Positions 30,550 through 60,482 of a DNA stretch of 60,482 nucleotides are shown here, in pieces (the stretch's first letter is position 1; the number at the start of each line of letters is the position of its first letter). The translations under genes were made by a program, and so were the position numbers. The stretch comes from Desulfurococcaceae archaeon (lineage in GTDB: Archaea > Thermoproteota > Thermoprotei_A > Sulfolobales > NBVN01): positions 1-60,482 of the forward strand of contig JAJHQJ010000005.1 in NCBI GenBank assembly GCA_020833415.1, read 5' to 3'. Under the pieces are notes generated by a model. The model searched no databases and was not told the DNA's origin. It saw nothing but the letters and a program-made list of their open reading frames with translations.

Positions 30550-32286
30550 ATAGGAAACTGGATAGTTACATCAGCATGGCCCTACGTTAACGGAGTACCC
30601 CACCTAGGTACTCTCGTGGGTAGCGTTCTATCGGCAGACGTCTTCGCTAGATACCTAAGGATGAGAGGTAATAGGGTGGTCTTTGTAAGTGGGAGTGACG
30701 AGCACGGTACGGTGATAGAGGTCGAGGCTATAAAGAGGGGACTTCAACCCAAGGATTTTACCGACCAAGCCCATAGCTACATACTTAAGCTGTGGGAGTC
30801 TTGGGAGATCTCGTTCGATAATTACACGAGGACCGAGTCTGAGGTGCATAAAGAGTTCGTACGGGAGTTCCTACTGGAAGTCCAGAGGAACGGATACATT
30901 GATGTCAGAGAGCAGTCGATTCCGTGGTGCCCTAAGGACAGGCTTTACCTACCGGATAGGTTCGTCAGCGGTACCTGTCCATATTGCGGCTACCCAGATG
31001 CTCATGGAGATCAGTGTGATGCGTGCGGCAGGATCTTGGATCCTGACCAGCTGATTAACCCGAGGTGCGTTTTCTGCGGTAGTAGGCCTGAGTTCATTTC
31101 GAGGAAGCACTGGTTCTTCCGCCTAGATAAACTGGGGGAGGCTCTCCGCGAGTTGCTCACCTCACACAAACTCCTAAGTGATAAGGTTAAGAGTTACTCA
31201 CTCGCCTGGGTAACCTCAGGGTTAAAACCCCGGGCCCTAACAAGGGATACCAGCTGGGGGATTCCAGCACCATTCGAAGGGGCTGAGGGTAAGACTGTCT
31301 ACGTCTGGTTCGATGCATTGCTAGGCTACATCTCAGCAACGAAGGAGTACTTTATAGTAAGGGGTAGGCCTGAGGAGTGGTTAGAACTTTGGTTAAGTAG
31401 AGATACAATGACAGCCTACTTCATAGGTAAGGATAACATACCGTTCCACGCAGTGATATTCCCAGCCCTAATCCTAGCCTCTGGAAGAGGCTACAAGTTG
31501 CCGGACCTGATTTCCGCAACCGAGTACCTTCTCTACGAGGGGGAGAAGTTCAGTAAGAGTAGGCGGGTAGGTATATGGGCTGACGAGGCTCTGGAGATCT
31601 TCGGTGAGGCGGAGTACTGGAGGTTCGCCTTAATGCGTATGAGACCGGAGGACCGCGATACCAGCTTTAAGTGGACCGAGTTCGTTAGGATAGTAAATAC
31701 CGAGCTAAACGACGATATCGGTAACTTCATACACAGGGTCCTGACCCTCATATGGAGGTACTTTAACGGCGTAATACCGGAGATCTCAGCACCTACTGGG
31801 GAGGATGAGGCTGCGCTGAAGACTTTAAGAGATAGCTGGCTAAGGTACTGCAGATATATAGAACTAGGTGAGATCAGGAAAGCATCTGAGGTGATAGTAG
31901 AACTAGCTAGGTTCGGCAACCAGTACATCACTAGGAAGGCACCCTGGTTTAAAATTAAGGAGGATGTCAATGACGTTAAAAACACTCTACGAGTTTCCTT
32001 CGAGATATGCTTACATATAGCAGTAATGCTCTACCCCTTCATGCCTAGACTCTCCAGAACTCTACTCGACACCATGGGTGTGGAGCTTCGAGAAGAGCTA
32101 GTAGTTAGGGATACCCCGAGAGAGCTCCTTAGGGAGGGTCATAGAATTAAGGAGCCTAGGGTAGTATTTACTAAGATACCGAAGGACCTGGCCGAGGCTT
32201 TACTAGACCCCGAGAAGAGGGAGACTCTCATAAGGTCTGCTCGGGAGAGAACTAACGCGCGGAGACCGCAGGTCCTCAGGTTTTAG
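30550..32286 (+). CDS. metG: Methionyl-tRNA synthetase, apparently starting at ATA
   Basis: This is class I MetRS with HIGH as PHLGT, KMSKS as KFSKSR, the zinc knuckle CPYCGY...CDACGR plus CVFCG, and WFDALLGYISA. The ORF track starts at 30616, which cuts off the required IVTSAWPYVNGVPHLG segment. The frame is open back to a TGA at 30541 with no ATG, GTG or TTG. The ATA at 30550 lies 6 nt after AGGTGA and gives (M)GNWIVTSAWPYVNG, the expected family N-terminus, 578 aa. It lacks the C-terminal EMAP/Trbp111 domain. Confidence 0.93.
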   Translation: MGNWIVTSAWPYVNGVPHLGTLVGSVLSADVFARYLRMRGNRVVFVSGSDEHGTVIEVEAIKRGLQPKDFTDQAHSYILKLWESWEISFDNYTRTESEVHKEFVREFLLEVQRNGYIDVREQSIPWCPKDRLYLPDRFVSGTCPYCGYPDAHGDQCDACGRILDPDQLINPRCVFCGSRPEFISRKHWFFRLDKLGEALRELLTSHKLLSDKVKSYSLAWVTSGLKPRALTRDTSWGIPAPFEGAEGKTVYVWFDALLGYISATKEYFIVRGRPEEWLELWLSRDTMTAYFIGKDNIPFHAVIFPALILASGRGYKLPDLISATEYLLYEGEKFSKSRRVGIWADEALEIFGEAEYWRFALMRMRPEDRDTSFKWTEFVRIVNTELNDDIGNFIHRVLTLIWRYFNGVIPEISAPTGEDEAALKTLRDSWLRYCRYIELGEIRKASEVIVELARFGNQYITRKAPWFKIKEDVNDVKNTLRVSFEICLHIAVMLYPFMPRLSRTLLDTMGVELREELVVRDTPRELLREGHRIKEPRVVFTKIPKDLAEALLDPEKRETLIRSARERTNARRPQVLRF

Positions 32287-32351
32287 ATAAGACCTAAGCT
32301 ACGACCCTAGGTTTATAAGGTCTTAGGTACTACCTGAAGAGGTGCAGATCT

Positions 32352-33188
32352 ACGTGTAGACTTATGTCAGTCTTGGGATCCGAGTGGGGCGACCTCCCCG
32401 AACTCTTGGAGGCCTTTAGTGAGGCTAGTAGGTGCGACCCCTACCTAATGAGTCTACATAGCTCAAAGATTTGCGAGGGGCATAGCGACGGCTGGGGCTA
32501 CGTCCTAGTCGGGGCTCTGGAGAGTGGGGAGGAAGTGGTTAACTACTATAGAAGTACTAGACCTGTCTACGAGGATACCGCTGTGCTAGGTAGTCTCGGG
32601 GGCTCAGCTAGGGAACTGGTGTACGGGGTACTGGTAGCGCATTCTAGGAGGAAGGCCGAGGGGTCTGTAAGGGTTGGGAATACCCACCCACTATACTACT
32701 CCTGGCGGGGGTTCGATATGTGGATAGTGCATAACGGAGTTGTAGATGCGGACTCTATAGCTAGGGAGCTCGGAGTCCCTAGAGGGGAGGATACTACCGA
32801 TACCTACTACCTCGGGGAGCTCATCTACAGGTCGGTGGCAGGTCCTGACTTAGGCGATGTAGTGGAGAAGGTGAGGTACGCCTCTAAATATACTAAGACG
32901 GCTATGAACACCTCTATACTCCTCTATACGAAGGGGAAGGCCTTACTCGTAGTAACCTCTTACGTAAATCCAGATAGACTAGGCGACCCTAAGGTAGTCG
33001 ACTACTATAGGCTCTACCTATTGAGTGGCCCAAGGGATTCGGCAGTGGTTTCATCCTCAATATTGAAGTACTATAATGTGCGTAGTGAGAGGGTTTCCGA
33101 GGTACCCCTTCAGTCCGGGCTGGCTATAGAGATAGACTTGAAGAGGAGAGTGGAGACCGCACGAGTTTCGTTTAAACTCGGTACCTAG
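32352..33188 (+). CDS. Class II glutamine amidotransferase-like protein, apparently starting at ACG
   Basis: This is an N-terminal nucleophile amidotransferase domain: GHSDGWGYVLV, VAHSRRKAEG, NTHPLYY, WIVHNGVVD and DTTDTYYL. Family members begin MCRL, where Cys2 is the nucleophile. Here ACG TGT AGA CTT ATG reads xCRLM; the track start at 32364 would remove the cysteine. ACG at 32352 is 7 nt after GAGGTG, and TATA TTTATAAGG lies at 32311-32319. It has no synthase domain, as in YafJ-like proteins, so the acceptor is unknown. 278 aa. Confidence 0.8.
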   Translation, partial: TCRLMSVLGSEWGDLPELLEAFSEASRCDPYLMSLHSSKICEGHSDGWGYVLVGALESGEEVVNYYRSTRPVYEDTAVLGSLGGSARELVYGVLVAHSRRKAEGSVRVGNTHPLYYSWRGFDMWIVHNGVVDADSIARELGVPRGEDTTDTYYLGELIYRSVAGPDLGDVVEKVRYASKYTKTAMNTSILLYTKGKALLVVTSYVNPDRLGDPKVVDYYRLYLLSGPRDSAVVSSSILKYYNVRSERVSEVPLQSGLAIEIDLKRRVETARVSFKLGT

Positions 33189-33227
33189 CTAACTCACATT
33201 GAAAGAGATCCGCGTGGGTGGTGAAGA

Positions 33228-33398
33228 GTGTCTGATGAAGAGAGGCTCAGAACTCACGGTCTTAGGGTATGTAGGGAGCTGTGTGCTGAGAAGGGGTTCT
33301 CAGCAGGGGCTTTTAGGGACTGTGTTGAGAGGTGCTTGGAGGAAATCGTGAAGGGGAGGCACCCGGAAGGTAGCGTCTTATTCAAGGAACTCACTTAA
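33228..33398 (+). CDS. Small twin-CX3C protein
   Basis: The 56-aa ORF below the track cutoff starts at GTG 33228 behind GGTGGTGA and ends TAA at 33396-33398. The sequence is strongly helical and charged with four cysteines spaced CX3C-X12-CX3C (VCRELC ... DCVERC). That is the spacing of disulfide-linked helical hairpins such as the small Tim chaperones; shared ancestry is not implied. It follows the amidotransferase gene by 39 bp and overlaps the convergent membrane-protein gene by 8 nt. Function unknown. Confidence 0.6.
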   Translation: MSDEERLRTHGLRVCRELCAEKGFSAGAFRDCVERCLEEIVKGRHPEGSVLFKELT

Positions 33399-34245
33399 CA
33401 TCTTTAGCCCCCTTCAACAGCCTCGATGGGTGGGTGGGGGCCCTCTCACGTTTTTTAACGTAAACCCATAGCGGAAGTACTGTTACAACGTAGAGTACAA
33501 CGGTTATCCACGGGTTGTCCAGAAGCCTCATGTACAGCCTACCGTTCTCGAACTTCAGTTTCAGTATTCCAGCTATGGTGGGCTCTGCACTAACCCTATA
33601 GCTGTATACGCAGCCGGTCGTTAACCTACTTAAGCAACTACCTTCTCTACAATTTACTTCAGCTACGTTAACGGGACCGTCCTCCCACTCTTTATACTCT
33701 ACCCTAATGCTACCCATGTCAACACCTCTGTATTCAGCCTTTACCGACGCGTTACATAGTTGTGCGGAGAGAACGAAGTAGATCTCGAGTGGGTACTGAG
33801 TTAAGATGTAGTCCTCGGACCTTCCTATTCTAGTTAAGTTAATGAAAGGACCCGGGTAGGAGGTGTTGACTGGGGATTCAGCCACCCTGAAGGAGGTGTT
33901 GACCACCTCCCCACAGGCTTTAACGAGTCTACTTTCCCTTAGGTAGAAGGTCTTCCACTCACTACCCTTCGGGATGGTAAACCTAAGTGTCTCATTACTT
34001 ACGGTTACTAGTACCGTGTAGTTCCTATCTTCAGGAGGAGCTATGTAGGTAGCCCTGAGTAAAGTTACGTTAACAATTCTATCACCTGTGAGATCGTACC
34101 TCACTAAACCCTCCTGCAGTGAGAATGCAACAGTTAACGTCATAACTATATACAGGAGGGCTATAACTAATGATGTAGGGAGAAGCAACTTCCCGAGCTT
34201 TCTCCTACCTCTCTTCCTCCTAGCATACCTCCTATACTTACCCAC
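33391..34245 (-). CDS. Bitopic membrane protein of unknown function
   Basis: The 284-aa protein has a very basic start (KYRRYARRKRGRRK), a transmembrane helix (SLVIALLYIVMTLTVAF), about 190 residues of likely exterior beta-rich sequence with several NxT/NxS sites and cysteines, and a second helix near the C-terminus (WITVVLYVVTVLPLWVYV) followed by a basic tail. No family recognised. The layout matches the gene at 4027-4677. GTG start at 34245 with GGAG upstream. Confidence 0.65.
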   Translation of the reverse strand: MGKYRRYARRKRGRRKLGKLLLPTSLVIALLYIVMTLTVAFSLQEGLVRYDLTGDRIVNVTLLRATYIAPPEDRNYTVLVTVSNETLRFTIPKGSEWKTFYLRESRLVKACGEVVNTSFRVAESPVNTSYPGPFINLTRIGRSEDYILTQYPLEIYFVLSAQLCNASVKAEYRGVDMGSIRVEYKEWEDGPVNVAEVNCREGSCLSRLTTGCVYSYRVSAEPTIAGILKLKFENGRLYMRLLDNPWITVVLYVVTVLPLWVYVKKRERAPTHPSRLLKGAKDVK

Positions 34246-34327
34246 GAAATGCTCCCGAGACTAAGTAGTGACGAGATAGTTATATCTGTGTACCGGCGAG
34301 GTCCAACCTAGTTCGCAGACCCCGAGT

Positions 34328-34372
<45 letters not shown>

Positions 34373-34429
34373 TAGTCTAAGAAGGGTGAAAATTTAAATG
34401 CGTGCTCTAGGAGTGTACTTGGTGGTAGC

Positions 34430-34696
34430 ATGCCTGAGCCATCCGCTACAGCGATAGTACTGCTAAACACGGATATAGGCTCGGAGGACGAGGTTCTAGA
34501 ACAGCTCTCTAGAATTGACGGAGTTGTGGAGGCAAGTATAGTATACGGAGTCTACGATATAGTGGTAAAGGTTAAGGCTAGGAGTATAGAGGAGCTTAAA
34601 GATATAATAACTAACAAGATAAGGAAGCTAGCTAAGGTTAAGTCAACCCTAACTATGGTTGTAGTTGAGGGTAAGAGTTTCGAAAAGAGGAGTTGA
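34430..34696 (+). CDS. Stand-alone Lrp/AsnC ligand-binding (RAM) domain protein
   Basis: The 88-aa protein is the C-terminal RAM half of an Lrp regulator without the DNA-binding half (IVLLNTDIGSEDEVLEQLSRIDGVVEASIVYGVYDIVVKVKA). Such single-domain proteins bind small molecules or pair with full-length Lrp proteins; a full-length one is encoded at 28465. ATG start, with a TATA at about 34391-34400. Its stop overlaps the tiaS start (TTGA), so the two are co-translated. Confidence 0.88.
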   Translation: MPEPSATAIVLLNTDIGSEDEVLEQLSRIDGVVEASIVYGVYDIVVKVKARSIEELKDIITNKIRKLAKVKSTLTMVVVEGKSFEKRS

Positions 34697-36015
34697 AGGT
34701 ATCCATAGGTATAGATGGAGCCGATTCTCCTAGGGGGGGTTGTACTACACACACCCTCTACAGACTATTCAAGGAACTTGTGAAGGAGGGTTACGTAGAG
34801 AGGGTCTTAGACTACCCATATCTAGTAAGACTTAACCCCTCAGTACCCTTCAAGACGCGTGGTAACGGTGCCGTAGCATTAAAGTTTGAACTCCGGAAGG
34901 ACCCTGGAGATCTGGTACCCTTCGTGGTGGGAGTAGTTGAGAAGTACCTGAGAGAGTTCTCGGGGAATGTCGATGACGTTGGCCTAGCTATAGTCTACGG
35001 TGATTACGATAGGGAGCTCTCGCACATATATTACGAAGCTCTAACAGACTATGTACACAGGTCGCGGATAGAGGGGTTAGTCGAGGGCAGTAATGGGAGG
35101 TTAGCCCTACCCATGGGTCTAAGCAGAGGGTGTGTGGGGGCTATTGCAGCTATAGGCTGGTCTGCTTCTAAGTTCACCTACGAGCTCCTAGTATACCGTA
35201 GCTCCTACTTAACCCCCCGAGAGGCTCTAGTAGACTTGGGTAAGCTAGCTTCAGTGGACCTCAACCCTAGGTATCGCACCTTCTGTAGTTTTGACCCTGA
35301 GGTAGGTAGGGTCGTAGCTATACCCAGAGGTCCCGACCCCGTCATCCTAGGCCTAAGGGGGTTGGATCCCGGAGGCTTAATCGAGGCTCTAGAATACCTA
35401 GGTATCTCAAAATATGTCGAGGGCTGGATCATCTTTAAGACTAACCAGGCAACTGGAGAACACTACGTCCCCAGAGCTTCTAGGGATATGAAGCCTTTTA
35501 GAACCGGTTGTATAGCTGGTGAGGTTACCTCTGTGAGGTCTGTGGTAGGTGGGGATGTGGAGTTAAAGGTAGATGACGGTTTCGGTTCCCTAGTTGCGTA
35601 CGTGTTTAAGGAGACAGGGCTGAGTAAGGTAGCGAGGAGTTTAGTCCGCGGTGACGTAGTTAGACTCTGCGGTACTGTAAAGTACTGGGAGGGTGTAGGT
35701 GGAGTACTACACGTAGAGCTACTGGAGGTTATAGATATAGCCGAGCTTCACGTAAAGAGAAATCCGAGGTGCCCCTCGTGTGGAGCTAGACTTAAGTCCG
35801 CAGGTAGGGATAAGGGATTTAAGTGCGTTAAGTGCGGGTATAAAACTAAGGAGTTAAAGCCGTCAATTCAGTTGGTTGGTAGGGATATTAGTAGGGGTTT
35901 CTACGTACCCAGTTGCGGAGGGGCCAAGCACCTTACAATACCCAGACCTCTTGTTGATATAGATACACACGTCCCGGTACAGACTCTAGTGGGGAGGATT
36001 TCGGACTTCTACTAG
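34693..36015 (+). CDS. tiaS: tRNA-Ile2 2-agmatinylcytidine synthetase TiaS
   Basis: The 440-aa protein shows the TiaS order: IGIDGADSPRGGCTTHTLYRL at the N-terminus, the FKTRGNGAVAL block, an OB-fold around 265-350 (TGCIAGEVTSVRSVVGG) and a C-terminal zinc ribbon CPSCGARL...CVKCGYKT. It attaches agmatine to C34 of tRNA-Ile(CAU) so that it reads AUA. TTG start at 34693 overlapping the RAM-protein stop. AUA reading is of interest because two genes here appear to start with ATA, though a link is only speculative. Confidence 0.93.
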   Translation: MKVSIGIDGADSPRGGCTTHTLYRLFKELVKEGYVERVLDYPYLVRLNPSVPFKTRGNGAVALKFELRKDPGDLVPFVVGVVEKYLREFSGNVDDVGLAIVYGDYDRELSHIYYEALTDYVHRSRIEGLVEGSNGRLALPMGLSRGCVGAIAAIGWSASKFTYELLVYRSSYLTPREALVDLGKLASVDLNPRYRTFCSFDPEVGRVVAIPRGPDPVILGLRGLDPGGLIEALEYLGISKYVEGWIIFKTNQATGEHYVPRASRDMKPFRTGCIAGEVTSVRSVVGGDVELKVDDGFGSLVAYVFKETGLSKVARSLVRGDVVRLCGTVKYWEGVGGVLHVELLEVIDIAELHVKRNPRCPSCGARLKSAGRDKGFKCVKCGYKTKELKPSIQLVGRDISRGFYVPSCGGAKHLTIPRPLVDIDTHVPVQTLVGRISDFY

Positions 36016-36023
36016 CTGAGATG

Positions 36024-36136
36024 GGGAATCCCCAGTCTTCCCGACCACAGCCCTCAGATGACAGATGTAAACCCAGGTAGTGGGGGTCGGTGAACTACCC
36101 TAGGGGAACCCCAGCCCTTCAGGGCGGGGAGGTTAG
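36024..36136 (+). ncRNA. Solitary omega-RNA-like transposon right end
   Basis: GATGGGGAATCCCCAGTCTTCCCGACC ... CAGATGACAGATGTAAACCC ... CTAGGGGAACC ... CCCTTCAGGGCGGGGAGG matches, with changes, the right end of the IS605-type element at 39472-39600 read on the minus strand. No transposase is attached. It can form the same series of hairpins. It sits right after tiaS and could be a relic, a non-autonomous element tip or a TnpB guide RNA source. No own promoter is clear. Confidence 0.6.
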
Positions 36137-36180
36137 TACGAGGTAGTTATAGTAGGCAGGGTAATTGAAAGCTGAATTAC

Positions 36181-36474
36181 TTAGTGAGTACCTCCACGTA
36201 GCTCTACGAGTTTCTTACCGAAGATCTTCATCAGCTCGTACTTCCTCAAATTACTCGGCACTTTTACAACGATCAAGGCTGGAGATCTATACCACGTGCT
36301 AGGATGCCTTTTCTCCTCAGTCTCACACTCATAGCCCAATTCTCTACATACCTTCAGGACCTCCTCTGGTTTAGGGTTCGGAACAGTAAGGCTTTTGGGG
36401 AGTTTCCTACCTTGCTTACGGCCTAGGTTCTGGTCGAAGTAGTTAAGCCAGAACCTAAGCTCCCTATAGCTCAT
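36181..36474 (-). CDS. srp19: Signal recognition particle 19 kDa protein
   Basis: The 97-aa protein has the SRP19 pattern: FWLNYFDQNLGRKQGRKLPKSL at the start and ECETEEKRHPSTWYRSPALIVVK in the middle. It binds the apical loops of 7S RNA and helps load SRP54 in targeting of membrane proteins. ATG at 36474, five bases after the S8e stop, so it is in an operon with rps8e. The 7S RNA gene is not visible in the window. Confidence 0.9.
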   Translation of the reverse strand: MSYRELRFWLNYFDQNLGRKQGRKLPKSLTVPNPKPEEVLKVCRELGYECETEEKRHPSTWYRSPALIVVKVPSNLRKYELMKIFGKKLVELRGGTH

Positions 36475-36479
36475 TTATA

Positions 36480-36872
36480 CTAACCGGAGCTCTTAGTGAG
36501 CACGGCGTTAACTACACCGTCTCTCGAAGGTCTAGAGGTAACCTTAGCTAACCCAAGCTCGGTCTCTATAACTGATCCCCTAGATACTATCCCCAACCTA
36601 ACGTACTCCCTGTTAGCAGGGTTTTCCACCACCCTCAATATCTTCACCTTCCTAAAAGTCTTAGACCCGGGGTCGTAGATGTTAGCGTAGGCAACTTCCT
36701 TAAGTCTAACAACAGTATTCCCACCCCTAACCCTCTCCTTCACCCTAACATCCCTGCTTCCGATCCTAGTTAGGGTGGGGTACCCCCCTAGCTCGTACTT
36801 ACGCTTCTTTCTATGCGGTCTTCTAATACCTCCCGAGACCTTCCTTGAGTCATTGCCTTGGTATATTGCCAG
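36480..36872 (-). CDS. rps8e: Ribosomal protein S8e, apparently starting at CTG
   Basis: The track gives only the last 87 residues (start 36743). The frame continues upstream through a clear S8e N-terminus: YQGNDSRKVSGGIRRPHRKKRKYELGGYPTL. The only codons between the in-frame TAG and this sequence are GAA CTG GCA ATA. CTG at 36872 lies 6 nt after GGGGGTG and gives (M)AIYQGNDSRK, 130 aa, matching family length and start (MGxYQGND). A TATA (TTTTAAATACT) about 30 bp upstream fits a very short leader. Small-subunit ribosomal protein. Confidence 0.9.
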   Translation of the reverse strand: MAIYQGNDSRKVSGGIRRPHRKKRKYELGGYPTLTRIGSRDVRVKERVRGGNTVVRLKEVAYANIYDPGSKTFRKVKILRVVENPANREYVRLGIVSRGSVIETELGLAKVTSRPSRDGVVNAVLTKSSG

Positions 36873-37080
36873 TTCCTACACCCCCTAACTAGGGGTAGAT
36901 AGTATTTAAAAGCGTTTAAAGACCTCTACAATCAAAAGCCCCCCAAGGGTGGTAGAGGCCGCCCAATCTCTAGGAAAGTGTACAAGAGGTTGGTAGATGA
37001 TGGTGGTATGTAGTGTAGTTCTTTAGGTCCTACCTTAAAGCTTATAGCTCAACCTCCACTCTACTCTACGGGAGGGGTCC

Positions 37081-37344
37081 GTGGTCAGGCCGGCGCTGAG
37101 GTCTAGGTCTAAGAGAAGGGTGTGGAGAAGAGTACCTGGAGGGAAGGTTAAGGTATTCTACGAAAGGAACTACGTATATGAGGCTTACTGTGCTGTGTGT
37201 GGTAGACCTCTGGGAGGGGTTCCCAGGGATATCAGGGTTATCAGGTACGGTCCTAAGACCGCGAAAAGACCCGAGAGACCCTACGGCGGAGTTCTCTGTT
37301 CAACATGTCTAGCTACAGCTATTAAGCTATCTATACGTAGCTAA
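37081..37344 (+). CDS. rpl34e: Ribosomal protein L34e
   Basis: The 87-aa protein is basic: RPALRSRSKRRVWRRVPGGKVKVFYERN, then a zinc ribbon (YCAVCGRPLGGVP ... VLCSTCLATAIKLSIR). That is the archaeal L34e pattern. GTG start behind GGGAGGGG. It is divergent from rps8e and leads an operon with cmk, 13 bp on. The 200 bp between rps8e and this gene hold both promoters and a CCTCTAC/GTAGAGG hairpin (36923-36958) of unknown meaning. Confidence 0.92.
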   Translation: MVRPALRSRSKRRVWRRVPGGKVKVFYERNYVYEAYCAVCGRPLGGVPRDIRVIRYGPKTAKRPERPYGGVLCSTCLATAIKLSIRS

Positions 37345-39217: not shown

Positions 39218-39243
39218 CTCTGCTCTAACTGAACTGTTGGTGA

Positions 39244-39444
39244 TGCCACCTGAGTCAGAGTCGGAGGGCGGTAGAGCTAGAGCTATTAGAGGAGTACACG
39301 TATGCTAATGAGAAGAGGTATAGGTTTAAGCTACGCGGTACAGATATAGTGATAAACGTTAGTGCAGATAATGTGGATGAGGGTATGGAGAAGGCAGTAG
39401 AGATATTGAAGAAGTTAGGACTGCTACCAGAGTTTCCCCGCTAA
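39244..39444 (+). pseudogene. Truncated small gene between two mobile elements
   Basis: An open frame codes for SRRAVELELLEEYTYANEKRYRFKLRG... ending KKLGLLPE, then runs into the IS607 right-end fragment at 39431 and stops in it. The sequence looks like a real small soluble protein (alternating alpha/beta, hydrophobic periodicity) but I do not recognise it. It has no ATG/GTG/TTG; a CTG at 39250 follows GGTGAT by five bases. It is probably the surviving part of a native gene cut at its 3' end. Confidence 0.45.
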
Positions 39445-39473
39445 CGGTACTTAATGGTATTTGTGAGTATTCT
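39431..39473 (-). mobile_element. Right-end fragment of an IS607 element
   Basis: On the minus strand, AATACTCACAAATACCATTAAGTACCGTTAGCGGGGAAACT matches the right end of the IS607 at 21765-23732 (GTACCGTTAGCGGGGAAACG) including the AAATACC block before it. Only about 43 bp remain, squeezed between the truncated small gene and the IS605-type right end. Confidence 0.7.
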
Positions 39474-40243
39474 GACCTCCTCCCCGCCCTAAAGGGCGTG
39501 GGTTCCCCTTAGGGGGTTCATCGGTTCCCCGCATCTATTCGGGTCTACATCTGTCATCTGCGGGGCAGTCGGGGTGGCCAGAGATCCCCCCATCTGGGTT
39601 AAAGCCCTCTTCTCAATATTTAATATTGCTACTGTATCCCGATCTGCTTCAAACCCACATCTAGGGCACTTAAGTACTCTATATCCATTCTCTCTCATTT
39701 TGCTACTGCACCTTGGGCACTTAGTGGATGTATCCATGGGGTCTACTGCTATAGATGGGACTCCGTGTTTCCCGCACTGCCAGTCAATCCACTCAGAGAT
39801 CCTCCTGTAGCTGAGTATTAGTAGGGAGACCTTGTGCTCCCGGGGGAGCTTCATCAAGCTCTCCACCAATCCTGTTAAATCCTCCCTGGCGACTGCGTAT
39901 TGGTGTTGCCTAGCTAATACTACAATTCTATGCGATGTCTTCTTAACCCAGTCCTCAATTATGCATCTAGCCTTAGCGTAGTAGTGTGATATCCTCCTTC
40001 TAACACCCCTCCTCCTAAGCCATGCATCATACCTCATCGAGGAGTACTTCTTCTGGAGGTTCTCAGCTAGTAGCTTATAGTGTAGAGCCCGCTCAATAGG
40101 GGTTTTAAACCTATATTCAAACTTGGAATTACCGATAACAATATGCTTCTCATTGACATCCACAGCTAAGACTCCTCTAGGGCTGTTTCGTAGCTGATGG
40201 TTAGGGGTTAGATTTATAAGCTTTGTTTCTATCCGTTATTCTG

Positions 40244-45587: not shown

Positions 45588-45989
45588 CTGGGGTCTCAGA
45601 TCCCAAGTAAGGAGAGTCTTGAGGAAAGAATATTAGAGATAGTGAAGGAGGCTAGTAAGAAGGGTGAGGGAGTGATACAGAGTGAGCTCTGGCATGCTCT
45701 AGGGATAGATAGTAGGGAGGGGAGTAAGATCGTGGCAAGGCTAATAAGAAGAGGGCTGTTAATGAGAGAGGCAGTTGTACACAAGGGTAAGAAAACCTAC
45801 AAGCTCTACTACTCTGACAGCATTAGAACCCCGGTAAGCATATCGGTGAACCTGAACCCAGCTATAGAGGTACCCTGCTTCTCCTGTAGGCAGATAAACA
45901 GATGTGGTGTAGGAGGTTACTACGACCCAACAAAATGCCCCCTGCTAACTAAGTACATAACTCAGCTAGTCCTCCGCAGATCTCTGTAG
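45588..45989 (+). CDS. RPC34-like winged-helix protein with Fe-S/zinc cysteines
   Basis: Winged helix (ESLEERILEIVKEASKKGEGVIQSELWHALGIDSREGSKIVARLIRRGLL) followed by a four-cysteine block CFSCRQINRCGVGGYYDPTKCPLL. This is the crenarchaeal/thaumarchaeal ortholog of RNA polymerase III subunit RPC34/hRPC39, which holds a 4Fe-4S cluster in that block. The track start at GTG 45642 removes the first helix. The frame is open upstream with no ATG/GTG/TTG. CTG at 45588 lies where a leaderless message from TATA CTATATTTG (45562-45570) would begin, giving 133 aa. Confidence 0.78.
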   Translation: MGSQIPSKESLEERILEIVKEASKKGEGVIQSELWHALGIDSREGSKIVARLIRRGLLMREAVVHKGKKTYKLYYSDSIRTPVSISVNLNPAIEVPCFSCRQINRCGVGGYYDPTKCPLLTKYITQLVLRRSL

Positions 45990-51866: not shown

Positions 51867-52319
51867 CTATGCAGTACTCTCAGAACTACCGCATAGGGTG
51901 AATTTCCTTCTGCTATACCACCACGTTAGCTGCATAACCCCCATCTCCCTAAGTCTCCTTGCCATCTCCTTGTCTAGTGTTGCGACAATAACCCCCTCCC
52001 CTAAGTCCCTGAGATCCGATGCCAGCTTAAGTACGCACTCATCAGTGGTAGTGCAGCCCACTACGTCCACTATTTCAATACTTAGGTACCCTTCATCTAT
52101 TAATTTCAGGAGTAGTCTCGCAGCTAATCCCCGCCGCCCCCTTTCTAGGGCTATCCTAGATAGCTCGTCCATAACTCTTCTAGGGGTAACGAAAACCGGG
52201 TGCTCACAGATACCCTCTAGGGAGTCAACTATGTCAGGAAAGCTACCGTACTCTCCAATGATAAGGAGGGCACTAGTGTCGAGGATAATTCTACAAATCC
52301 TTCGGCTAGTGCTTGACAA
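51867..52319 (-). CDS. PIN-domain ribonuclease-like protein
   Basis: The 150-aa PIN-fold protein has acidic residues in IILDTSALLII, TDECVLKLASDL and GVIVATLDKEMARRL. The layout resembles the Fcf1/Utp24-like archaeal PIN proteins that follow aIF2-gamma in many archaea, rather than VapC: there is no antitoxin gene beside it. It probably acts in rRNA processing. TTG start overlapping the aIF2-gamma stop by 14 nt, so translation is coupled. Confidence 0.82.
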   Translation of the reverse strand: MSSTSRRICRIILDTSALLIIGEYGSFPDIVDSLEGICEHPVFVTPRRVMDELSRIALERGRRGLAARLLLKLIDEGYLSIEIVDVVGCTTTDECVLKLASDLRDLGEGVIVATLDKEMARRLREMGVMQLTWWYSRRKFTLCGSSESTA

Positions 52320-53544
52320 CTCCCCAGCCTACTAACCTCCATCTATTCATTATGTTTCTACTTATAGCTACCTTCATGCTCTTCCATGAGACTACCGGCT
52401 TGTCTACAAGGTCAGCTTCAAACCAGTCTGCTGACAACCTCTTGACTACGGCCATGACCGTTGCGGTCCCGGCTGTGATCATTATCTTCTCTCCGACCCT
52501 TAGTGGAGGGACCTTCTGTAGCTCACGTGTACCTACAACTCTCTCGAAGAGGTGGTAATCTACTGCTAGATGAGTCTGTGGCTCAGGTAGCTGATCGGCT
52601 AGACCTACAACAGAGCCTACAAGTCTGTCCGCCTTAGTTAGGGACGGGTCTAGGCCTGTACCTATTGCTACTAACCCTCCCGGTTTTGCCTCCTTAAATG
52701 ATCTCTCACCGAACCTTATGCTCTCAATTCTCGTATAGAGTTTCCTAAACATAGTCTTCCCCCCCTCGGTTACCCTAATACCTGGACTTATCTCTATTTC
52801 ATCACCTACCTTGAAGATCCCCCTAGTAACGCTCCCCCCTACTACACCCCCGATAAGCCTATCGGGAGGGGTTCCGGGTCTGTTAACGTCAAACGACCTA
52901 GCTACGAACATTACCGGCTTAGCTGAGAGGTCGCGCTCCGGGGTTTTGAAGAGCTCCTCCATGGCTACAATAAGTGCATCTACGTTTACCTTATGCAAGG
53001 CGCTGACGGGGATTATGGGGGCGTTCTCAGCGAACGTACCAGCTAGGAAACTTCTTATCTCCTCGTAGTTTTTCTTAGCCCTATCCCTATCTACTACATC
53101 GACCTTGTTTTGGACTACGATGATGTTCTTAACCCCGATAATCTCGAGGGCCTTAAAGTGCTCCCTAGTTTGAGGCTGTGGGCACGGCTCGTTAGCGGCT
53201 ATTACGAGGAGAGAGCTGTCCATAAGGGCTGCCCCCGATAGCATGTTGGCCATGAGCACCTCATGCCCGGGTGAGTCAACGAAGGATATGCTCCTCCTGT
53301 AAACCGGGTTCTGGCACTCTATTGGGTCAGTTACATAGCGTTCGTAAAGACCTCTACCAGGGCATTCGAATATATCGGTATCGGCATAGCCCACCTTTAT
53401 CGTCATAGACCTTAGTAGCTCCTCTGAGTGTCTGGAGGTCCAAATACCTGTTATAGCCTGGACTAGGGTAGTTTTACCGTGGTCTACGTGGCCTACTACC
53501 CCTATATTTATCTCCGGCTGTCTGTACTGAAACTCGAAGCTCAT
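52306..53544 (-). CDS. eif2g: Translation initiation factor aIF2 gamma subunit
   Basis: The 412-aa GTPase has GVVGHVDHGKTTLVQAITG (G1), DSPGHEVLM (G3), VVQNKVDVV (G4), SALHKVNVD (G5), a zinc-knuckle-like region (DIFECPGRGLYERYVTDPIECQNP; fewer cysteines than usual) and beta-barrel domains. It carries Met-tRNAi to the small subunit. Given the non-AUG starts proposed here, it belongs to the start-selection machinery, though nothing abnormal is obvious. Overlaps FKBP by 4 nt. Confidence 0.95.
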   Translation of the reverse strand: MSFEFQYRQPEINIGVVGHVDHGKTTLVQAITGIWTSRHSEELLRSMTIKVGYADTDIFECPGRGLYERYVTDPIECQNPVYRRSISFVDSPGHEVLMANMLSGAALMDSSLLVIAANEPCPQPQTREHFKALEIIGVKNIIVVQNKVDVVDRDRAKKNYEEIRSFLAGTFAENAPIIPVSALHKVNVDALIVAMEELFKTPERDLSAKPVMFVARSFDVNRPGTPPDRLIGGVVGGSVTRGIFKVGDEIEISPGIRVTEGGKTMFRKLYTRIESIRFGERSFKEAKPGGLVAIGTGLDPSLTKADRLVGSVVGLADQLPEPQTHLAVDYHLFERVVGTRELQKVPPLRVGEKIMITAGTATVMAVVKRLSADWFEADLVDKPVVSWKSMKVAISRNIMNRWRLVGWGVVKH

Positions 53545-54248: not shown

Positions 54249-54352
54249 TTACCGCACCTTCAACTAGTATCGGGGACTTAACTTAAAAAGCGGATCTTCG
54301 GGTTGGAGTGGGTTAGGGTATTTAAGCCTGTTAAGCTCTAGATTTCTCCGGT

Positions 54353-55378
54353 GTGTTGATGAGTACTAGAAGTGTATTAGCAGAGCTTCTATGGGCTGAG
54401 AAGTACAGGCCTCGGTCCCTACGGGAGATGGTAAACCAAGAGGAGATCGTTAAGAGATTGCAGGTATTCGTTAAAGAGAAGAACATGCCGCACCTACTCT
54501 TTGCAGGCCCCCCGGGGACTGGCAAGACTACGGCAGCTCACGCGCTGGCACACGACCTCTACGGGGAGGACTACAGGTTGTACATGCTAGAGTTGAACGC
54601 TTCAGATGAGAGGGGTATAGATGTGATAAGGACTAAGGTTAAGGAGTTCGCTAGGAGTAAGCTACCAGCCAACGTTCCATTTAAGATCATACTACTAGAC
54701 GAAGCAGACAATATGACGCCAGATGCCCAGCAAGCCCTTAGGAGACTTATGGAGATGTACGTAGACGTTACCAGGTTTATACTTATAGCTAACTATCCCA
54801 GCAAGATAATCGAGCCGATTCAATCTAGGTGTGCGGTCTTCAGGTTTACCCAGCTGAAGAAGGAGGACGTTATATCCAGACTTAAGTGGATATGTAATAA
54901 CGAGAAGGTAGTCTGTGATGATAGAGGGCTTGAGGCTGTATATGAGGTCTCTGAGGGTGATATGAGGAAGGCTATAAATATCCTACAGGCTGCAGCCGCT
55001 CTAGGGGAGGTTAACGTATCTAACGTATATAGAGTGGTGGGCCTGGCTACACCAGCTGAGGTCAGGGCCCTACTTAAGTCAGCCCTCTTTGAGGGGGACT
55101 TCCTTAAAGCTAGGGATAACCTAAGGAAGCTGATGGTATCCTACGGTCTCTCTGGAGTAGATATTATTAAGCAGCTTCATAGAGAGATATTTAGCTCAGA
55201 GATAAACATGCCAGAGGAGATGAGGGTTGAGATAGCCGACTACTTAGGTGAGATACAGTTCAGACTTGTCGAAGGGGCTGATGACGAGATACAGTTAAGT
55301 GCCCTCCTCGCAAAGCTCGTACTACTAGGTAAACCGCTAAGACAGCAGGTCCAGGCTAAGCCTACTAAGGTGAAGTAA
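54353..55378 (+). CDS. rfcS: Replication factor C small subunit
   Basis: The 341-aa AAA+ ATPase has EKYRPRSLREMVNQEEI, LLFAGPPGTGKTTAAHALA, ILLDEADNMTPDAQQALRR and the SRC finger QSRCAVFRF. With RfcL it loads the PCNA clamp. No intein is present. GTG-TTG-ATG in a row at 54353 offer three starts; a TATA (TATTTAAG, about 54319) predicts a nearly leaderless message. Its stop overlaps the rfcL ATG (TAATG). Confidence 0.95.
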   Translation: MLMSTRSVLAELLWAEKYRPRSLREMVNQEEIVKRLQVFVKEKNMPHLLFAGPPGTGKTTAAHALAHDLYGEDYRLYMLELNASDERGIDVIRTKVKEFARSKLPANVPFKIILLDEADNMTPDAQQALRRLMEMYVDVTRFILIANYPSKIIEPIQSRCAVFRFTQLKKEDVISRLKWICNNEKVVCDDRGLEAVYEVSEGDMRKAINILQAAAALGEVNVSNVYRVVGLATPAEVRALLKSALFEGDFLKARDNLRKLMVSYGLSGVDIIKQLHREIFSSEINMPEEMRVEIADYLGEIQFRLVEGADDEIQLSALLAKLVLLGKPLRQQVQAKPTKVK

Positions 55379-56799
55379 TGTCCCAAGAGAGGAGAATTCC
55401 CTGGGTAGTTAAGTACAGACCGAGTAGGGTAGCTGATGTAGTTAATCAGGAGGAGGCTAAGAAGGCCTTCCTAAACTGGCTTGACTCCTGGCTACGGGGT
55501 AAGCCGGAGAGGAAGGCCGCCCTCCTCTACGGACCGCCGGGTTCTGGTAAGACCTCTCTTGTTGAGGCAGCTGCTAGGGAGTATGGACTGGAGCTATTAG
55601 AGATGAATGCCAGCGACTATAGAAGAGCTTCAGATATAGAGAGGGTGGCATTAGTATCATCTAGGGGGGCTAGCTTAGTAAGGGCTCGCGGTAAGATAAT
55701 CCTCTTAGATGAGGTAGACGGTATTTCCGCTACAGCCGACTTAGGAGCTCTAGATGCTATAGTAAATCTGATAAATAAAACATCCTACCCAGTAGTACTC
55801 GTAGCTAACGACCCCTGGGACCCGAAGCTACGCGAACTCAGGGAGGTTTGCCTACTTATAGAGTTTAAGAGATTAACTAAGACAGAGATAAAGAAGGTTC
55901 TCCAAAACATATGTAGGAATGAGAAGTTAGACTGCGAGGACGAGGCCCTGAACTTCATCGCCGAAAGAGCTGAAGGGGATCTTAGATCAGCCATAAACGA
56001 TATAGAAGCTCTTGGCGAGGGCTTCGGTAGGGTCACCTACGCCCTAGCCCGGACCGTCCTGGGTTATAGGAATAGGGAGTTAAATTCCTTCGAGGTAGTT
56101 AGGAGGATACTAACAGCTAAGTACTCTTGGCAGGCTAGGATAGCTGCCTCTCAGACTGACTTAGCTCCAGACGAACTTATTCAGTGGATTAACGAGAACG
56201 TACCTAGACAAGCTGTAGACCCCGAGGACCTCTGGCGAGCTTTTGAAAGCCTTTCCAGGGCAGATATCTACATGGCTAGGGTAGTTAAAAGCGGTAACTG
56301 GGACCTACTAGCATATGCTTCAGACATGATGACAGCTGGCGTAGCCTTGGCTATCACAAACCCGCAGTATAAGTTTAAGTGGGTTAAGTACGGGTTCCCG
56401 GAGAAGATAAGGATGTTATCTAAAACGAGGGAGGTTAGGCAGGTTAGGGATGACCTAGCTAAGGTTATAGCTCAGCACCTTAAGTGCTCTACCTCGGTAG
56501 CGAAGTCCGAGGTCATCCCCCTGCTAAGGGTTATATTCGATAACAACCCAGAGTATGCGGCAAGACTCGCTCTAGGTTTAGGGCTTAGTGACTCCATGAT
56601 AAAGTATCTCTCTGAGAGGAACGGTGATAGGGTAGTTAAGCTTGTAGAGGATCTGAGAGCGCAACTCAGAGAGGCTCTACTAGGAGGTTTAGAGAGCCCC
56701 GCTAGAAAAGAAGTGGAGAAGGTTAAGCCGGCTACTAAAAAGGCGGAGAGAAGGAGAGCAAAGAGTTCTGAGGGACTCAAGGGCTTTCTTAAGAAGTAA
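55378..56799 (+). CDS. rfcL: Replication factor C large subunit
   Basis: The 473-aa AAA+ protein has KYRPSRVADVVNQEEA, ALLYGPPGSGKTSLVEAAA, ILLDEVDGI, a collar domain, and a lysine-rich tail ending LKGFLKK, a PIP-box-like clamp-binding end. It is the single large subunit of the archaeal clamp loader. Overlaps the convergent wHTH gene by 11 nt. Confidence 0.95.
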   Translation: MSQERRIPWVVKYRPSRVADVVNQEEAKKAFLNWLDSWLRGKPERKAALLYGPPGSGKTSLVEAAAREYGLELLEMNASDYRRASDIERVALVSSRGASLVRARGKIILLDEVDGISATADLGALDAIVNLINKTSYPVVLVANDPWDPKLRELREVCLLIEFKRLTKTEIKKVLQNICRNEKLDCEDEALNFIAERAEGDLRSAINDIEALGEGFGRVTYALARTVLGYRNRELNSFEVVRRILTAKYSWQARIAASQTDLAPDELIQWINENVPRQAVDPEDLWRAFESLSRADIYMARVVKSGNWDLLAYASDMMTAGVALAITNPQYKFKWVKYGFPEKIRMLSKTREVRQVRDDLAKVIAQHLKCSTSVAKSEVIPLLRVIFDNNPEYAARLALGLGLSDSMIKYLSERNGDRVVKLVEDLRAQLREALLGGLESPARKEVEKVKPATKKAERRRAKSSEGLKGFLKK

Positions 56800-57064
56800 A
56801 GAGCTCGCGTATTATTCTAGCAACCGGGTTAGCTGAGTTTAACCTATAGGTCTTAACCCTCCCTAGGGAAACTTCGTAGACCACCCCCTGTTCCACCAAG
56901 TACTGCAGCCCTCTCTTAACAACTTTGTGATTAAGCCTTGTTAACCTAACTATGGCTGAGATATTGAGGGAACCGTACTCACATAGTAGCTTAAGTATTT
57001 TAACCCTAGTCCTACTCGATAGAACCTCGACTACCTTATCGCTTAGGCTACTCACCGAGCTCAC
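56789..57064 (-). CDS. Small winged-helix (ArsR-like) DNA-binding protein
   Basis: The 91-aa protein is a winged helix: LSSRTRVKILKLLCEYGSLNISAIVRLTRLNHKVVKRGLQYLVEQGVVYEVSLGRVKTYRLN. No metal or ligand domain. It starts inside the 3' end of orc1/cdc6 (17-nt overlap), so it is co-expressed with the origin-binding protein. Orc1-linked wHTH proteins occur in Sulfolobus-like genomes; a role at origins or in autoregulation is a guess. Confidence 0.85.
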   Translation of the reverse strand: MSSVSSLSDKVVEVLSSRTRVKILKLLCEYGSLNISAIVRLTRLNHKVVKRGLQYLVEQGVVYEVSLGRVKTYRLNSANPVARIIRELFTS

Positions 57065-58301
57065 GCCTCAGCGCTATGGCTCTATTGAGAGCGTTTAGCA
57101 GGCTATCCAGAGGTGCTGCTCCGAAGCTTACATAGCTACTCCGACCTCTACGTCCCTTAAGGCTCTTCCTAACCATTATTATACCTCTATTAGCTAACTC
57201 TGAGACGTAGTAGTAGACCTGCGTATGCTTCCTAGGTTCGACACCTATCTCAGTACACAGTTTCCTATATATAGACTCTACCGTACCTATGCTCACGAAA
57301 TCCTCTCCGGAACTCTTAAGCTCTAGGGCTATGGCTTTGAGAAGAAGTAGCTGGTGTAGGTTGAGGTAGTTGAGGGAGTCTAGGACGTGTACCAGACTTA
57401 CATCCTCACGGACGGATACGGCTCTAACATGGTCTACGAGAACTCTGGTAGCCCTCCCCTCCTCTATTTCCTTCTCTGCTAACTTGCCAGCAGCGTATAA
57501 AATAGCTAAAGCCTTCCTAGCGTTTCCATCACCACCAGTATCTACCCCGATTAGGTTTGCTATGTATTCGAAAACTTCATCACCTACAACACCCGGTTGA
57601 AACGCCTCCTCAGCACGGTACTTCAGTATATCGTAGAGCTCCCTAGCTCTATAGGCGTTAAAGACTATGGTATTTCTGAGGACATAGCCCCCGGAGACCT
57701 CATCAAGTACTTTAGCGATTTCATGCGGCTTCATCCTGCTTATGTAGATGAAGTTAAGCCTGAGAACCTCGGAGTGGAATACGTCGTAGAATCTAAGTAG
57801 GACGTACCTATCCTCAGCTTTAAAGCTCGTAAGTACCGTGTCGAACTCATCTAGAGTTACAATGGCGTAGAGGTCGTTGAGGTCTAGCTCCTTTAGGAGT
57901 GCTTGGACGAACTCTAAAAGTCCTAGCCCTCTATCCGGGATACTCAGGCCTAGTTGGTTCTTGATCTCCCTAAGTACAGGTAAGGCACCCTTAACGCTAG
58001 CACAGTTTACGTGTACGTACTTCAACTTTATACCCCGCTCATTGGCTATCCTACACATAACTCTCCCGAAAGATATCGCGGTAGCTGTCTTACCAGTACC
58101 TAGAGAACCGTATAGCACCACCCTACCCGAGGAGCTCCCCGGAGAGACTATGACGTGTTTGAACATCTTAGTTAGTTGCTTGAGTTGCTCCTCCCTATGT
58201 GGTAGAACCTCCGGAACGTACTCCGGGTACAGCTTGGTTTCATCTATAAATACCCCGGGCCTCCTAATAATACTTTCAATTACCTCCTTAATGTTACTCA
58301 T
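57048..58301 (-). CDS. cdc6: Orc1/Cdc6 origin recognition ATPase
   Basis: The protein of about 417 aa has AAA+ motifs VVLYGSLGTGKTATAISFGR (Walker A), VTLDEFDTVL (Walker B), sensor 1 IYISRMKPHE, GDGNARKALAILYAAG (sensor 2) and a C-terminal winged helix. It marks replication origins and recruits MCM. I prefer ATG 58301 with GGTGAT upstream; the TATA at about 58350 puts the track start (58334) ahead of transcription. No ORB repeats could be seen in the 70 bp upstream, so no origin is claimed. Confidence 0.93.
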   Translation of the reverse strand: MSNIKEVIESIIRRPGVFIDETKLYPEYVPEVLPHREEQLKQLTKMFKHVIVSPGSSSGRVVLYGSLGTGKTATAISFGRVMCRIANERGIKLKYVHVNCASVKGALPVLREIKNQLGLSIPDRGLGLLEFVQALLKELDLNDLYAIVTLDEFDTVLTSFKAEDRYVLLRFYDVFHSEVLRLNFIYISRMKPHEIAKVLDEVSGGYVLRNTIVFNAYRARELYDILKYRAEEAFQPGVVGDEVFEYIANLIGVDTGGDGNARKALAILYAAGKLAEKEIEEGRATRVLVDHVRAVSVREDVSLVHVLDSLNYLNLHQLLLLKAIALELKSSGEDFVSIGTVESIYRKLCTEIGVEPRKHTQVYYYVSELANRGIIMVRKSLKGRRGRSSYVSFGAAPLDSLLNALNRAIALRRELGE

Positions 58302-58373
58302 ACTTTCACTTATCACCTGAATACTTACACCCACATTAATAAGAACGCCTATAAAGAGTTCGAGGACGCCGAG

Positions 58374-59087
58374 CTAGGGGTTAAGACCTTCGTAGAGCTT
58401 CTTTCTTCTTTCGTACTCCTCCCGGTTCATGACGAATCTAGCTGGAACACCAGCTACTACAACACCAGGAGGTACATCCTTAGTTACCACAGCACCTGCT
58501 GCGACAACAGCTCCTCTACCTATTACGACACCAGCTACAACCGTAGCATTAGCTCCAATAACGGCCTCATCCTCGATTACTGTTTCAACTATCCTACTGC
58601 TTGGGGGGTACCTATCGTTCGTTATGACAGCTCTAGGGCCTATGAATACCCCTCTTCCTATCCGGGTCTTTATCGGTATGTAAACTCCGGTCTGTATGTT
58701 GGTGTGCTCCCCTATAGTTACATACCCATCTATTACGGTTCCAGTACCTACCTTAGTCCAGCTACCTACGGAGGTCTTCTCCCTAATTAACACTCCGTGA
58801 CCAAGCTCTACACCATCCCCAAGCTCTACCTCCTCATATATGATACAGTGGGTCCTAACTATCACACCTTTACCTAGTCTACATCCACTGCTAACTCTAT
58901 CAACCTCCTCTAGGGGCTGCTCAGAACTTCCTAGCTCTGAGAGTTTTCTCTTAACAGGAAACCCTAGAACCGAGAAGCTGAAGATTCTGGAGTCGTCTCC
59001 TACTGATGTACTACCGAGTACTACTACTGGAGGAGTCAGTAGCACGCTAGGGCTTAGCGAAGCCTTCCTAGATACGTAGTGCGTCAT
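58374..59087 (-). CDS. Left-handed beta-helix acyltransferase
   Basis: Hexapeptide repeats run through most of the protein ([86 protein letters not shown]). This is the LbH fold of sugar-nucleotide or serine-type acetyltransferases, with a probable role in surface glycan or sugar modification. A TATA (TATATAAATAC, about 59126-59136) puts the RNA start near 59104, so ATG 59087 is better than the track GTG at 59111; 237 aa. Confidence 0.85.
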
Positions 59088-59158
59088 TACGTTCACGAGC
59101 TTCCCTTGCACTGAGCAGGTAACACTATATAAATACAGTCCTAGTAGGGGCTGTAGCT

Positions 59159-59422
59159 GTGCAGCTGGTGGACTTCGTTAGGCAGATGGCTGTAGCCGTT
59201 ACAACTGTAGCCTGGTTTGTATTCCTAGTTACCTGGGCTGTTGGGTGGGCCCTACGGGGGGCTCCACTTCCGTTCAGGAACATCAAGAGAGTGGGTCAGA
59301 GTCTTATTGAGGACTCCGTAATGGCGGCTTTCTGGTTAGCACTCGGTACCACGATATTCGCACTGATATCCTACATAGTGTCCTCCATATCACTACCCAT
59401 GCCTCCACCCCCGTCACCTTAG
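59159..59422 (+). CDS. cedA1: CedA1-like small membrane protein (candidate DNA-import pilin)
   Basis: The 87-aa protein has two hydrophobic helices ([21 protein letters not shown] and [24 protein letters not shown]), a basic connecting loop ([10 protein letters not shown]) and a proline-rich tail. With the polytopic gene that follows, this fits the crenarchaeal Ced DNA-import genes, where CedA1 is a VirB2-like subunit. The identification rests on size, topology and neighbourhood, not on a clear motif. GTG start at 59159. Confidence 0.6.
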
Positions 59423-59436
59423 CGGGGTGTTCGACT

Positions 59437-60482
59437 ATAGAGATACTCCCACTAGCGTATACCCTCTCACTACTCACGTACGTAATAGGTGCTGTTCTCT
59501 ACGGCTCTCCCATACCTGCTAAGTACGTTAAGAAGTGGGGGGTTATGATGATGTACGACGGTATAGCGTCAGCTACTCTAGTCTCAGCCTATGGTCTCAT
59601 GATTAAGCTGGGGGACTACCTCCTGTCCATAGTTAACGCAGACTGGGGGAACTTCACCGTCTGGCTTACTAGTAGGACCGGTGTCCTGGTATCCATGTAC
59701 CTACTGCTACAGTCTCTCGGAGCTATGTTAAAGGCTTCGGGAGCTGAGGTACTCCTGGAGATACTTAAGCACGCAGGAGCACTCCTGGCTACAGCTCTCA
59801 CAGCTATTAAGACGGTTTACATCATCTCCATGGTAATCTACAGTCTTAGGGATAAGATCCTTGCCGTAGGTGTACTCCTCTACTCTCTACCATTTAGGAT
59901 TGGGAGAGGTGTTGGCGCGGCCCTGATAGCTGCCTCATTGGTATACTACATCGGACTCCCCCTCATGCCCGCGTTTGCGGCGATTTTCGAGGCGCCTCCC
60001 GTAACTATGCCTAGCAGCGGTTTAGGTAGTATCAGGGGTAGGGTGGTGGATGCTCTAGGAAGCCCCCTACCTAATGCTATTATAGAACTTTACGGAAGTA
60101 GTACCGTTGAACCGGATGTAGTTGTTGTGGCAGATACCTCGGGAAGGTTCTACGTCGGACCACCGTACGATGTGATGACGGAAGGTACCGCCTTTACGTC
60201 CTCCGTAGTCTTCATGGGGTACAGGTTCACCCCAGATCCATCGTATCTCAAAGCACCGTGGGAGGGGTCTCTAAGGGTCTACAACCTAGTCTACGCAGGT
60301 CAGAGTCTAGCTCTAATGCTTATTGGCGTGTTCTACATAGGTAACATGAGTAGGGTCTGTAGCGAACTTTTGTTAAACATGGAGGTTCTCAGCGAAACTG
60401 CCTCCGTAGCTATCCTAAAGCTTAGCATAGTTAACGTAAGCTCTATAGCGGTTAATGGTGAAAGCCTGCAGTGCTCTTGGAG
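59437..60482 (+). CDS. cedA: CedA-like polytopic membrane protein, 5' part, apparently starting at ATA
   Basis: The track lists nothing here because the frame runs off the window. It reads EILPLAYTLSLLTYVIGAVLYG, several more membrane helices (LLATALTAIKTVYIISMVIYSL, VGAALIAASLVYYIGLPLMP), then a long beta-rich, probably exterior domain (GSIRGRVVDALGSPLPNAIIELYG, carboxypeptidase-regulatory-like). It fits CedA, the DNA-import channel. The frame has no ATG/GTG/TTG before the first helix. ATA at 59437 lies 7 nt after GGGGTG, 14 bp after the cedA1 stop. The 3' end is outside. Confidence 0.6.
   Translation, partial: MEILPLAYTLSLLTYVIGAVLYGSPIPAKYVKKWGVMMMYDGIASATLVSAYGLMIKLGDYLLSIVNADWGNFTVWLTSRTGVLVSMYLLLQSLGAMLKASGAEVLLEILKHAGALLATALTAIKTVYIISMVIYSLRDKILAVGVLLYSLPFRIGRGVGAALIAASLVYYIGLPLMPAFAAIFEAPPVTMPSSGLGSIRGRVVDALGSPLPNAIIELYGSSTVEPDVVVVADTSGRFYVGPPYDVMTEGTAFTSSVVFMGYRFTPDPSYLKAPWEGSLRVYNLVYAGQSLALMLIGVFYIGNMSRVCSELLLNMEVLSETASVAILKLSIVNVSSIAVNGESLQCSW

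Follow-up and report, generated by a model that had tools for sequence, protein, structure and literature searches.

Bacterial non-AUG starts such as the AUU of infC (IF3) are confined to a single regulatory gene, or a handful of them, in each genome, and in plant plastids ACG starts are repaired via C-to-U editing. Near-cognate starts in prokaryotes are usually regarded as rare curiosities and are left out by standard gene finders. A review of archaea names only AUG, GUG and UUG as start codons (PMC7531240), and in yeast the N135D mutant of eIF2-gamma, a Sui- mutant, shows weaker Met-tRNAi binding and more UUG initiation (PMC11230868). Here we analyse the starts of MetRS (metG) and other conserved genes in a stretch of 60,482 nucleotides (the window), which is contig C77 of G000, an archaeal metagenome-assembled genome (MAG) of 1.25 Mb, 85 contigs and 82% completeness from the order Sulfolobales, family NBVN01, which includes Zestosphaera. 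A preliminary description of the window had proposed that five of its genes start at ATA, ACG or CTG. In our analysis G000, and less so its genus, a group of uncultured archaea of hot springs, very probably initiates genuinely at near-cognate codons, owing to relaxed selection of the start codon.

As with the infC AUU, the near-cognate codons of G000 accompany a good Shine-Dalgarno sequence and would be decoded by a normal initiator tRNA; unlike infC-type cases, they number at least 20 good examples, CTG and ACG prevail among them, and ordinary housekeeping genes are included. Like plastid genes, G000 has ACG at the start column, but it also uses CTG and ATA, which cannot be edited to AUG in that way. 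The GGTG Shine-Dalgarno, the conventional initiator tRNA and the mixture of Shine-Dalgarno-led and leaderless genes are those of usual archaea (PMC7531240), whereas the addition of CTG, ACG and ATA to the repertoire is not. Near-cognate starts are already known gene by gene; the novelty lies in a natural lineage that uses them often in its core genes, with some of them conserved across species. Our literature searches, most subscription papers lying outside their reach, turned up no account of archaea that use near-cognate starts frequently.

G000 was covered in its entirety and its closest relative, G005, to about 55%; the other relatives were compared via pattern matches. The six congeners are designated G001–G006, and their MetRS identity to G000 is 68–73%. 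Our homology-free test asks which codon stands at a fixed distance past GGTG near an in-frame stop, in the open reading frames (ORFs) with the best coding bias and at least 80 codons (at least 100 for percentages by codon and spacing). In G000 the frequency of ATG/GTG/TTG after GGTG peaks at 6–7 nt, with 10.9% and 7.6% (18.5% together). ACG peaks there as well (9.2% and 5.7% at 6 and 7 nt, 14.9% together) and CTG is raised there (4.5% and 2.8%), while other codons reach 1.6% and 0.6% (2.2% together); the spacing of the near-cognates from the initiation signal is thus that of the canonical codons. We then define as orphan a start site with no ATG/GTG/TTG between the in-frame stop and 12 codons beyond the site. 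At 6 or 7 nt past GGTG, 10 of 20 orphan sites of G000 carry CTG, ACG or ATA, versus 1.8 expected (p=2.8e-6), and no such excess is seen at spacings of 2–4 and 8–16 nt. The genome-wide count that the preliminary description had suggested as a check thereby returns a spacing-specific excess. By our own arithmetic, based on how far they exceed the spacing background, near-cognates make up about a tenth of the GGTG-led starts in G000. A wide definition of the Shine-Dalgarno gave weak contrast only, the GGTG core at exact spacing being the informative signal; a blind scan for Shine-Dalgarno and conservation served for leads only, because it included GTG starts inside GGTG.

The start of MetRS was compared by alignment. 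In G000 the gene contains zero ATG, GTG or TTG from an in-frame TGA (30541–30543) to codon 23, and its start is, on the sequence, non-canonical whether it lies at ACG 30547 or at ATA 30550. ATA 30550 stands 7 nt past GGTG, and ACG 30547, immediately 5' of it, aligns with the ACG of the relatives: the start column reads GGTG-6 nt-ACG in G001–G005, ATG in G006, and ACG once more in G007 and G015, which represent two further genera of the family. The proposal of a non-canonical MetRS start is borne out by the upstream TGA and the lack of a canonical codon, but its assignment to the ATA is put in question by the aligned ACG; probably the start derives from a conserved ACG.

In other genes, too, the relatives place the near-cognate codon where a start belongs. 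S15 has CTG right after an in-frame TAG in G000 and ATG, GTG or TTG at exactly that column in 17 relatives; PdxT has CTG, with canonical ATG, GTG or TTG in 9 relatives. The start column of S8e holds CTG in G000, ACG in G006, ATG in G002 and a canonical codon (ATG or GTG) outside the genus. A TFS-like zinc-ribbon gene begins with a GGTG-led ACG in G000, G002, G003, G005 and G006, preceded three codons upstream by an in-frame TGA in G000, G002 and G005. Agmatinase shows ACG in G000 and TTG at the same place, 5 nt past GGTG, in G002, G005 and G006, and EndA has ATA 7 nt past GGTG in G000 and G005 alike. Near-cognate codons, one position off AUG, thus occupy the family start column in MetRS, TFS-like, S8e, S15 and PdxT, and CDC48, NMD3, DegT, NAD epimerase and others in G000 also fit the pattern. 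An in-frame stop immediately precedes the near-cognate codon in S15, NAD epimerase and the gene at C29:2431, and one is adjacent or close upstream in S15, the epimerase, S8e, MetRS, TFS-like, PdxT and CDC48. Comparison of close relatives, the other check suggested beforehand, therefore yields start columns, in up to 17 relatives, that support near-cognate starts. IleRS has an apparent ATT start in G000 (C59:35229, +) and G005 (C2:52757, +); in both species an in-frame stop lies a few codons upstream and there is no ATG, GTG or TTG at the start place.

Within the window (Table 1), the amidotransferase ACG 32352 follows GAGGTG by 7 nt. Class-II amidotransferases require Cys as residue 2. ATG 32364, four codons after the ACG, is rejected as the start because it is located after the obligatory Cys2 codon; the near-cognate start stands, but the earlier assertion that no canonical codon exists was too strong. 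For S8e (GGGGGTG-6 nt-CTG 36872), the spacing, an in-frame TAG two codons upstream and the eS8 family model, in which residue 2 of the protein falls on profile position 2, agree on the CTG. CedA (GGGGTG-7 nt-ATA 59437) has its first ATG 36 codons in, and model NF041796 matches it from residue 2 onward, which falls on profile position 6; the case for its ATA appears strong but not forced, because the frame is open upstream. The proposed placement of the near-cognate codon 6–7 nt past the Shine-Dalgarno in four genes is accordingly found in MetRS, the amidotransferase, S8e and CedA. For the fifth, the RPC34-like gene, neither a Shine-Dalgarno nor a relative was found against which CTG 45588 could be checked, and that start is plausible only. 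Among the cases described as weaker, ORF 39250 gains from a CTG 6 or 7 nt past GGTG in both G000 and G005, ORF 45460 (minus strand) is without support, and the gene at 4677 can do without a special start, an in-frame TTG standing at 4677.

Table 1. Features of the window bearing on start-codon selection.
Feature	Position	Strand	Remark
Shine-Dalgarno AGGTGA of metG (MetRS)	30538..30543	+	
ACG-ATA, candidate non-canonical starts of MetRS	30547..30552	+	ACG matches congener ACG; ATA 7 nt past GGTG
MetRS gene	30547..32286	+	no ATG/GTG/TTG before codon 23
Shine-Dalgarno GAGGTG of class-II amidotransferase	32339..32344	+	
Class-II glutamine amidotransferase-like gene	32352..33188	+	apparent ACG start, then TGT (Cys2); relatives align from residue 2
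Ribosomal protein S8e gene	36480..36872	-	apparent CTG start
Shine-Dalgarno GGGGGTG of S8e	36879..36885	-	
GGTG Shine-Dalgarno of ORF 39250	39239..39242	+	
Small conserved protein, ORF 39250	39250..39444	+	apparent CTG start, also in congener G005
RPC34/TFIIIC B-block-like winged helix gene	45588..45989	+	possible CTG start
aIF2-gamma gene	52306..53544	-	zinc knuckle degenerate
aIF2-gamma switch 1, EELLRSMTIK	53395..53424	-	Ser; mostly Gly in the order, Ala in rest of family
Shine-Dalgarno GGGGTG of cedA	59424..59429	+	
CedA DNA-import protein gene	59437..60482	+	apparent ATA start; continues past window end

Because G000 was assembled from a metagenome and is the only MAG in which S15, PdxT and agmatinase start non-canonically, one might suppose that consensus or assembly errors converted true ATG, GTG or TTG codons into CTG, ACG or ATA. 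We consider this very unlikely. Independent MAGs show non-canonical codons in the same columns (MetRS, TFS-like, EndA, ORF 39250), and errors would show no preference for one GGTG spacing. Moreover, no more than 9 of the 393 long genes look broken when set against G005; 9 per about 151,000 codons corresponds by our own arithmetic to at most about 4e-4 substitutions per base, so that about one start-codon error is expected versus at least 20 near-cognate starts seen. Long genes being so rarely broken, errors in so accurate an assembly cannot account for these starts, and neither the spacing test nor the 393 genes compared with G005 reveal the signature of an artefact, that is, random placement or a general excess of frameshifts and stops. 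The view that random errors would not fall on start codons and leave the spacing intact, and with it the original preference for genuine near-cognate starts, is upheld by these points and by the alignments. Translation could instead begin at a downstream canonical codon, with the extra N-terminal residues untranslated, and such a codon is always present somewhere (for instance ATG 32364 or GTG 45642); however, the parts that would be lost are essential or conserved in profiles (Cys2 of the amidotransferase, the N-terminal strand of MetRS, S8e from profile position 2). Alignment between G000 and G005 and in-frame coding bias also extend upstream of the first canonical codon, in 37 and 24 flagged genes, not all of which are start cases, and we regard downstream starts as highly improbable. 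Editing of the plastid type, restoring AUG from ACG, would suit ACG as the most clearly enriched non-canonical codon, but C-to-U conversion cannot turn CTG or ATA into AUG, so two or three separate editing systems would have to be invoked, which makes this explanation barely credible.

A further alternative differs from relaxed selection in this lineage in its cause only: given a good Shine-Dalgarno, any archaeal ribosome might use near-cognates, the fact being hidden by gene finders such as Prodigal, which ignores ATA, ATT and CTG (PMC2848648). The ordinary look of the initiator tRNA, the anti-Shine-Dalgarno and aIF1 fits such a general tolerance. However, outside the genus all or almost all of the relatives compared begin S15, PdxT and S8e at a canonical codon, and in Sulfolobus aIF1 reportedly discriminates against start codons of the non-canonical kind and rejects them (PMC6237735); we give the idea a modest chance, well short of an even one. 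Several observations weigh against relaxed selection in G000 and its genus. ATA, ATT and ATC are individually non-significant in the homology-free test, the CTG signal is partly due to codon phase, the effect is weaker in G005 (3 of 10 orphan sites near-cognate at 5–7 nt past GGTG, p=0.02), and control loci from other archaea are too few to show confinement to the group. The serine of aIF2-gamma switch 1 discussed below also occurs in G029, and the link with aIF2-gamma is a correlation. Finally, most of the MetRS orthologues compared have an in-frame GTG two or three codons before the ACG. This GTG is, however, directly followed by TGA in G004, out of frame in G000 and lost in G006, so that the ACG/ATG column alone is common to all of them.

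If initiation is indeed relaxed in G000, the start repertoire would comprise CUG, ACG, AUA and probably AUU and AUC beside AUG, GUG and UUG. A GGTG-type Shine-Dalgarno would position the codon 6–7 nt downstream in the P site, and the ordinary initiator tRNA (CAU) would tolerate one mismatched base, which other archaea do not accept. Met would presumably be inserted at the near-cognate codons, and as the reason we infer that the aIF1/aIF1A/aIF2 complex discriminates less strictly between codons. An altered initiator anticodon was considered and rejected: the initiator tRNA (C11:1778, +) has CTCATA with an 18-nt intron, after whose removal it is normal, with anticodon CAU, an A1-U72 acceptor pair and a G-C rich anticodon stem. 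The 16S 3' end of G000 carries a normal anti-Shine-Dalgarno, and loss of aIF1 was likewise rejected, as the factor is present and ordinary. aIF1A has only distant similarity to solved archaeal aIF1A. Its gene (C43:25584-25971, +) may itself start at CTG (GGTG-5 nt-CTG AGC AAG), with an in-frame TTG a few codons before. Three tRNAs with CAT anticodon, all apparently bearing an intron after the anticodon and missed by ARAGORN, were seen: a tRNA-Ile2-like one (window 14387-14478, -), the initiator and an elongator Met (C59, -).

The candidate cause is a genus-wide Ser in switch 1 of aIF2-gamma. The motif is EELLRSMTIK in 7 of 7 genus members and EELKRAMTIK in the other family members examined; in the order it is mostly EELKRGMTIK, with Ala in G021. 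By phmmer (query 2 to yeast 91, assuming no intervening gap) Ser46 corresponds to yeast eIF2-gamma Asn135. Moreover, the zinc knuckle of aIF2-gamma in G000 lacks two of its four cysteines. As in the yeast N135D mutant (PMC11230868), a P-site mismatch would be tolerated and the altered residue aligns with N135; the present case differs in being natural and lineage-wide, with Ser rather than Asp and Shine-Dalgarno rather than scanning, and the residue's causal role is that of a candidate only. On this correlation we think it rather doubtful that the switch-1 substitution is the cause. Tentatively, and with slightly more inclination, one may picture a genus with a hereditarily relaxed initiation code, in which switch 1 makes CUG, ACG and AUA ordinary starts (about one in ten of those led by Shine-Dalgarno) and some of them (ACG of MetRS and TFS-like, ATA of EndA) have been selected as weak or regulated starts. 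If near-cognate starts are real in genes such as S8e, S15, MetRS, CDC48 and NMD3, the lineage is a natural counterpart of the yeast Sui- mutants, start-codon fidelity control becomes directly testable in archaea, whose system is close kin of the eukaryotic one, and many N-termini in these genomes are misannotated.

In neither G000 nor G005 does the release factor gene aRF1 possess a canonical start. In G000 (C46, ~39413-39554, minus), a pattern search identifies a small ORF of the form (V/M)-x-(x)-(I/V)-UAG. Its UAG runs into the beginning of the aRF1 frame in the +1 arrangement, written (A/G)TT-TAG-C/T, with an SD-like GGTG or GAGGG 6 nt before the AUU or GUU. The junction is also present in G001–G005, G007, G011, G012, G014, G016, G018–G020, G027, G029, G030, G033 and G035; it covers the genus, most matched family members and several other families, with a variant TAT-TAG in G008 and G017; the pattern search did not find it in G024, G025, G038, G039 and G040. 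ATTTAG is nearly invariant there despite the absence of an in-frame protein constraint. The same layout is known from the +1 frameshift of RF2 in bacteria (CUU-UGA-C) and from the Mimivirus release factor (CUU-UAG-C), autoregulation of this kind being stated to be absent from archaeal homologues (PMC3521657); a 2021 review lists a single programmed frameshift known in archaea, a -1 case (PMC8211752). The junction is apparently an RF2-like autoregulatory +1 frameshift or start-stop element; alternatively, initiation may occur at the AUU or UUU itself.

The pairwise screen of G000 against G005 used overlap and coding-potential filters, added against antisense shadow ORFs, and some of the cases it flagged were gene overlaps and not start problems. 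Crenarchaeal Cbf5 genes often have a spliced intron. A cbf5-like frame (C14:13724-14573, -), conserved in G005 without a start, was set aside as a probable intron. The ABC ATPase at window position 23702 was likewise dismissed as a start anomaly, the gene being probably cut by a TnpB-like insertion: a TnpB/IS605-like ORF (in 22424-24413, +) ends at about 23710, directly before the ABC-transporter ATPase, which lacks the Walker A part present in G005 and is probably truncated by the insertion.

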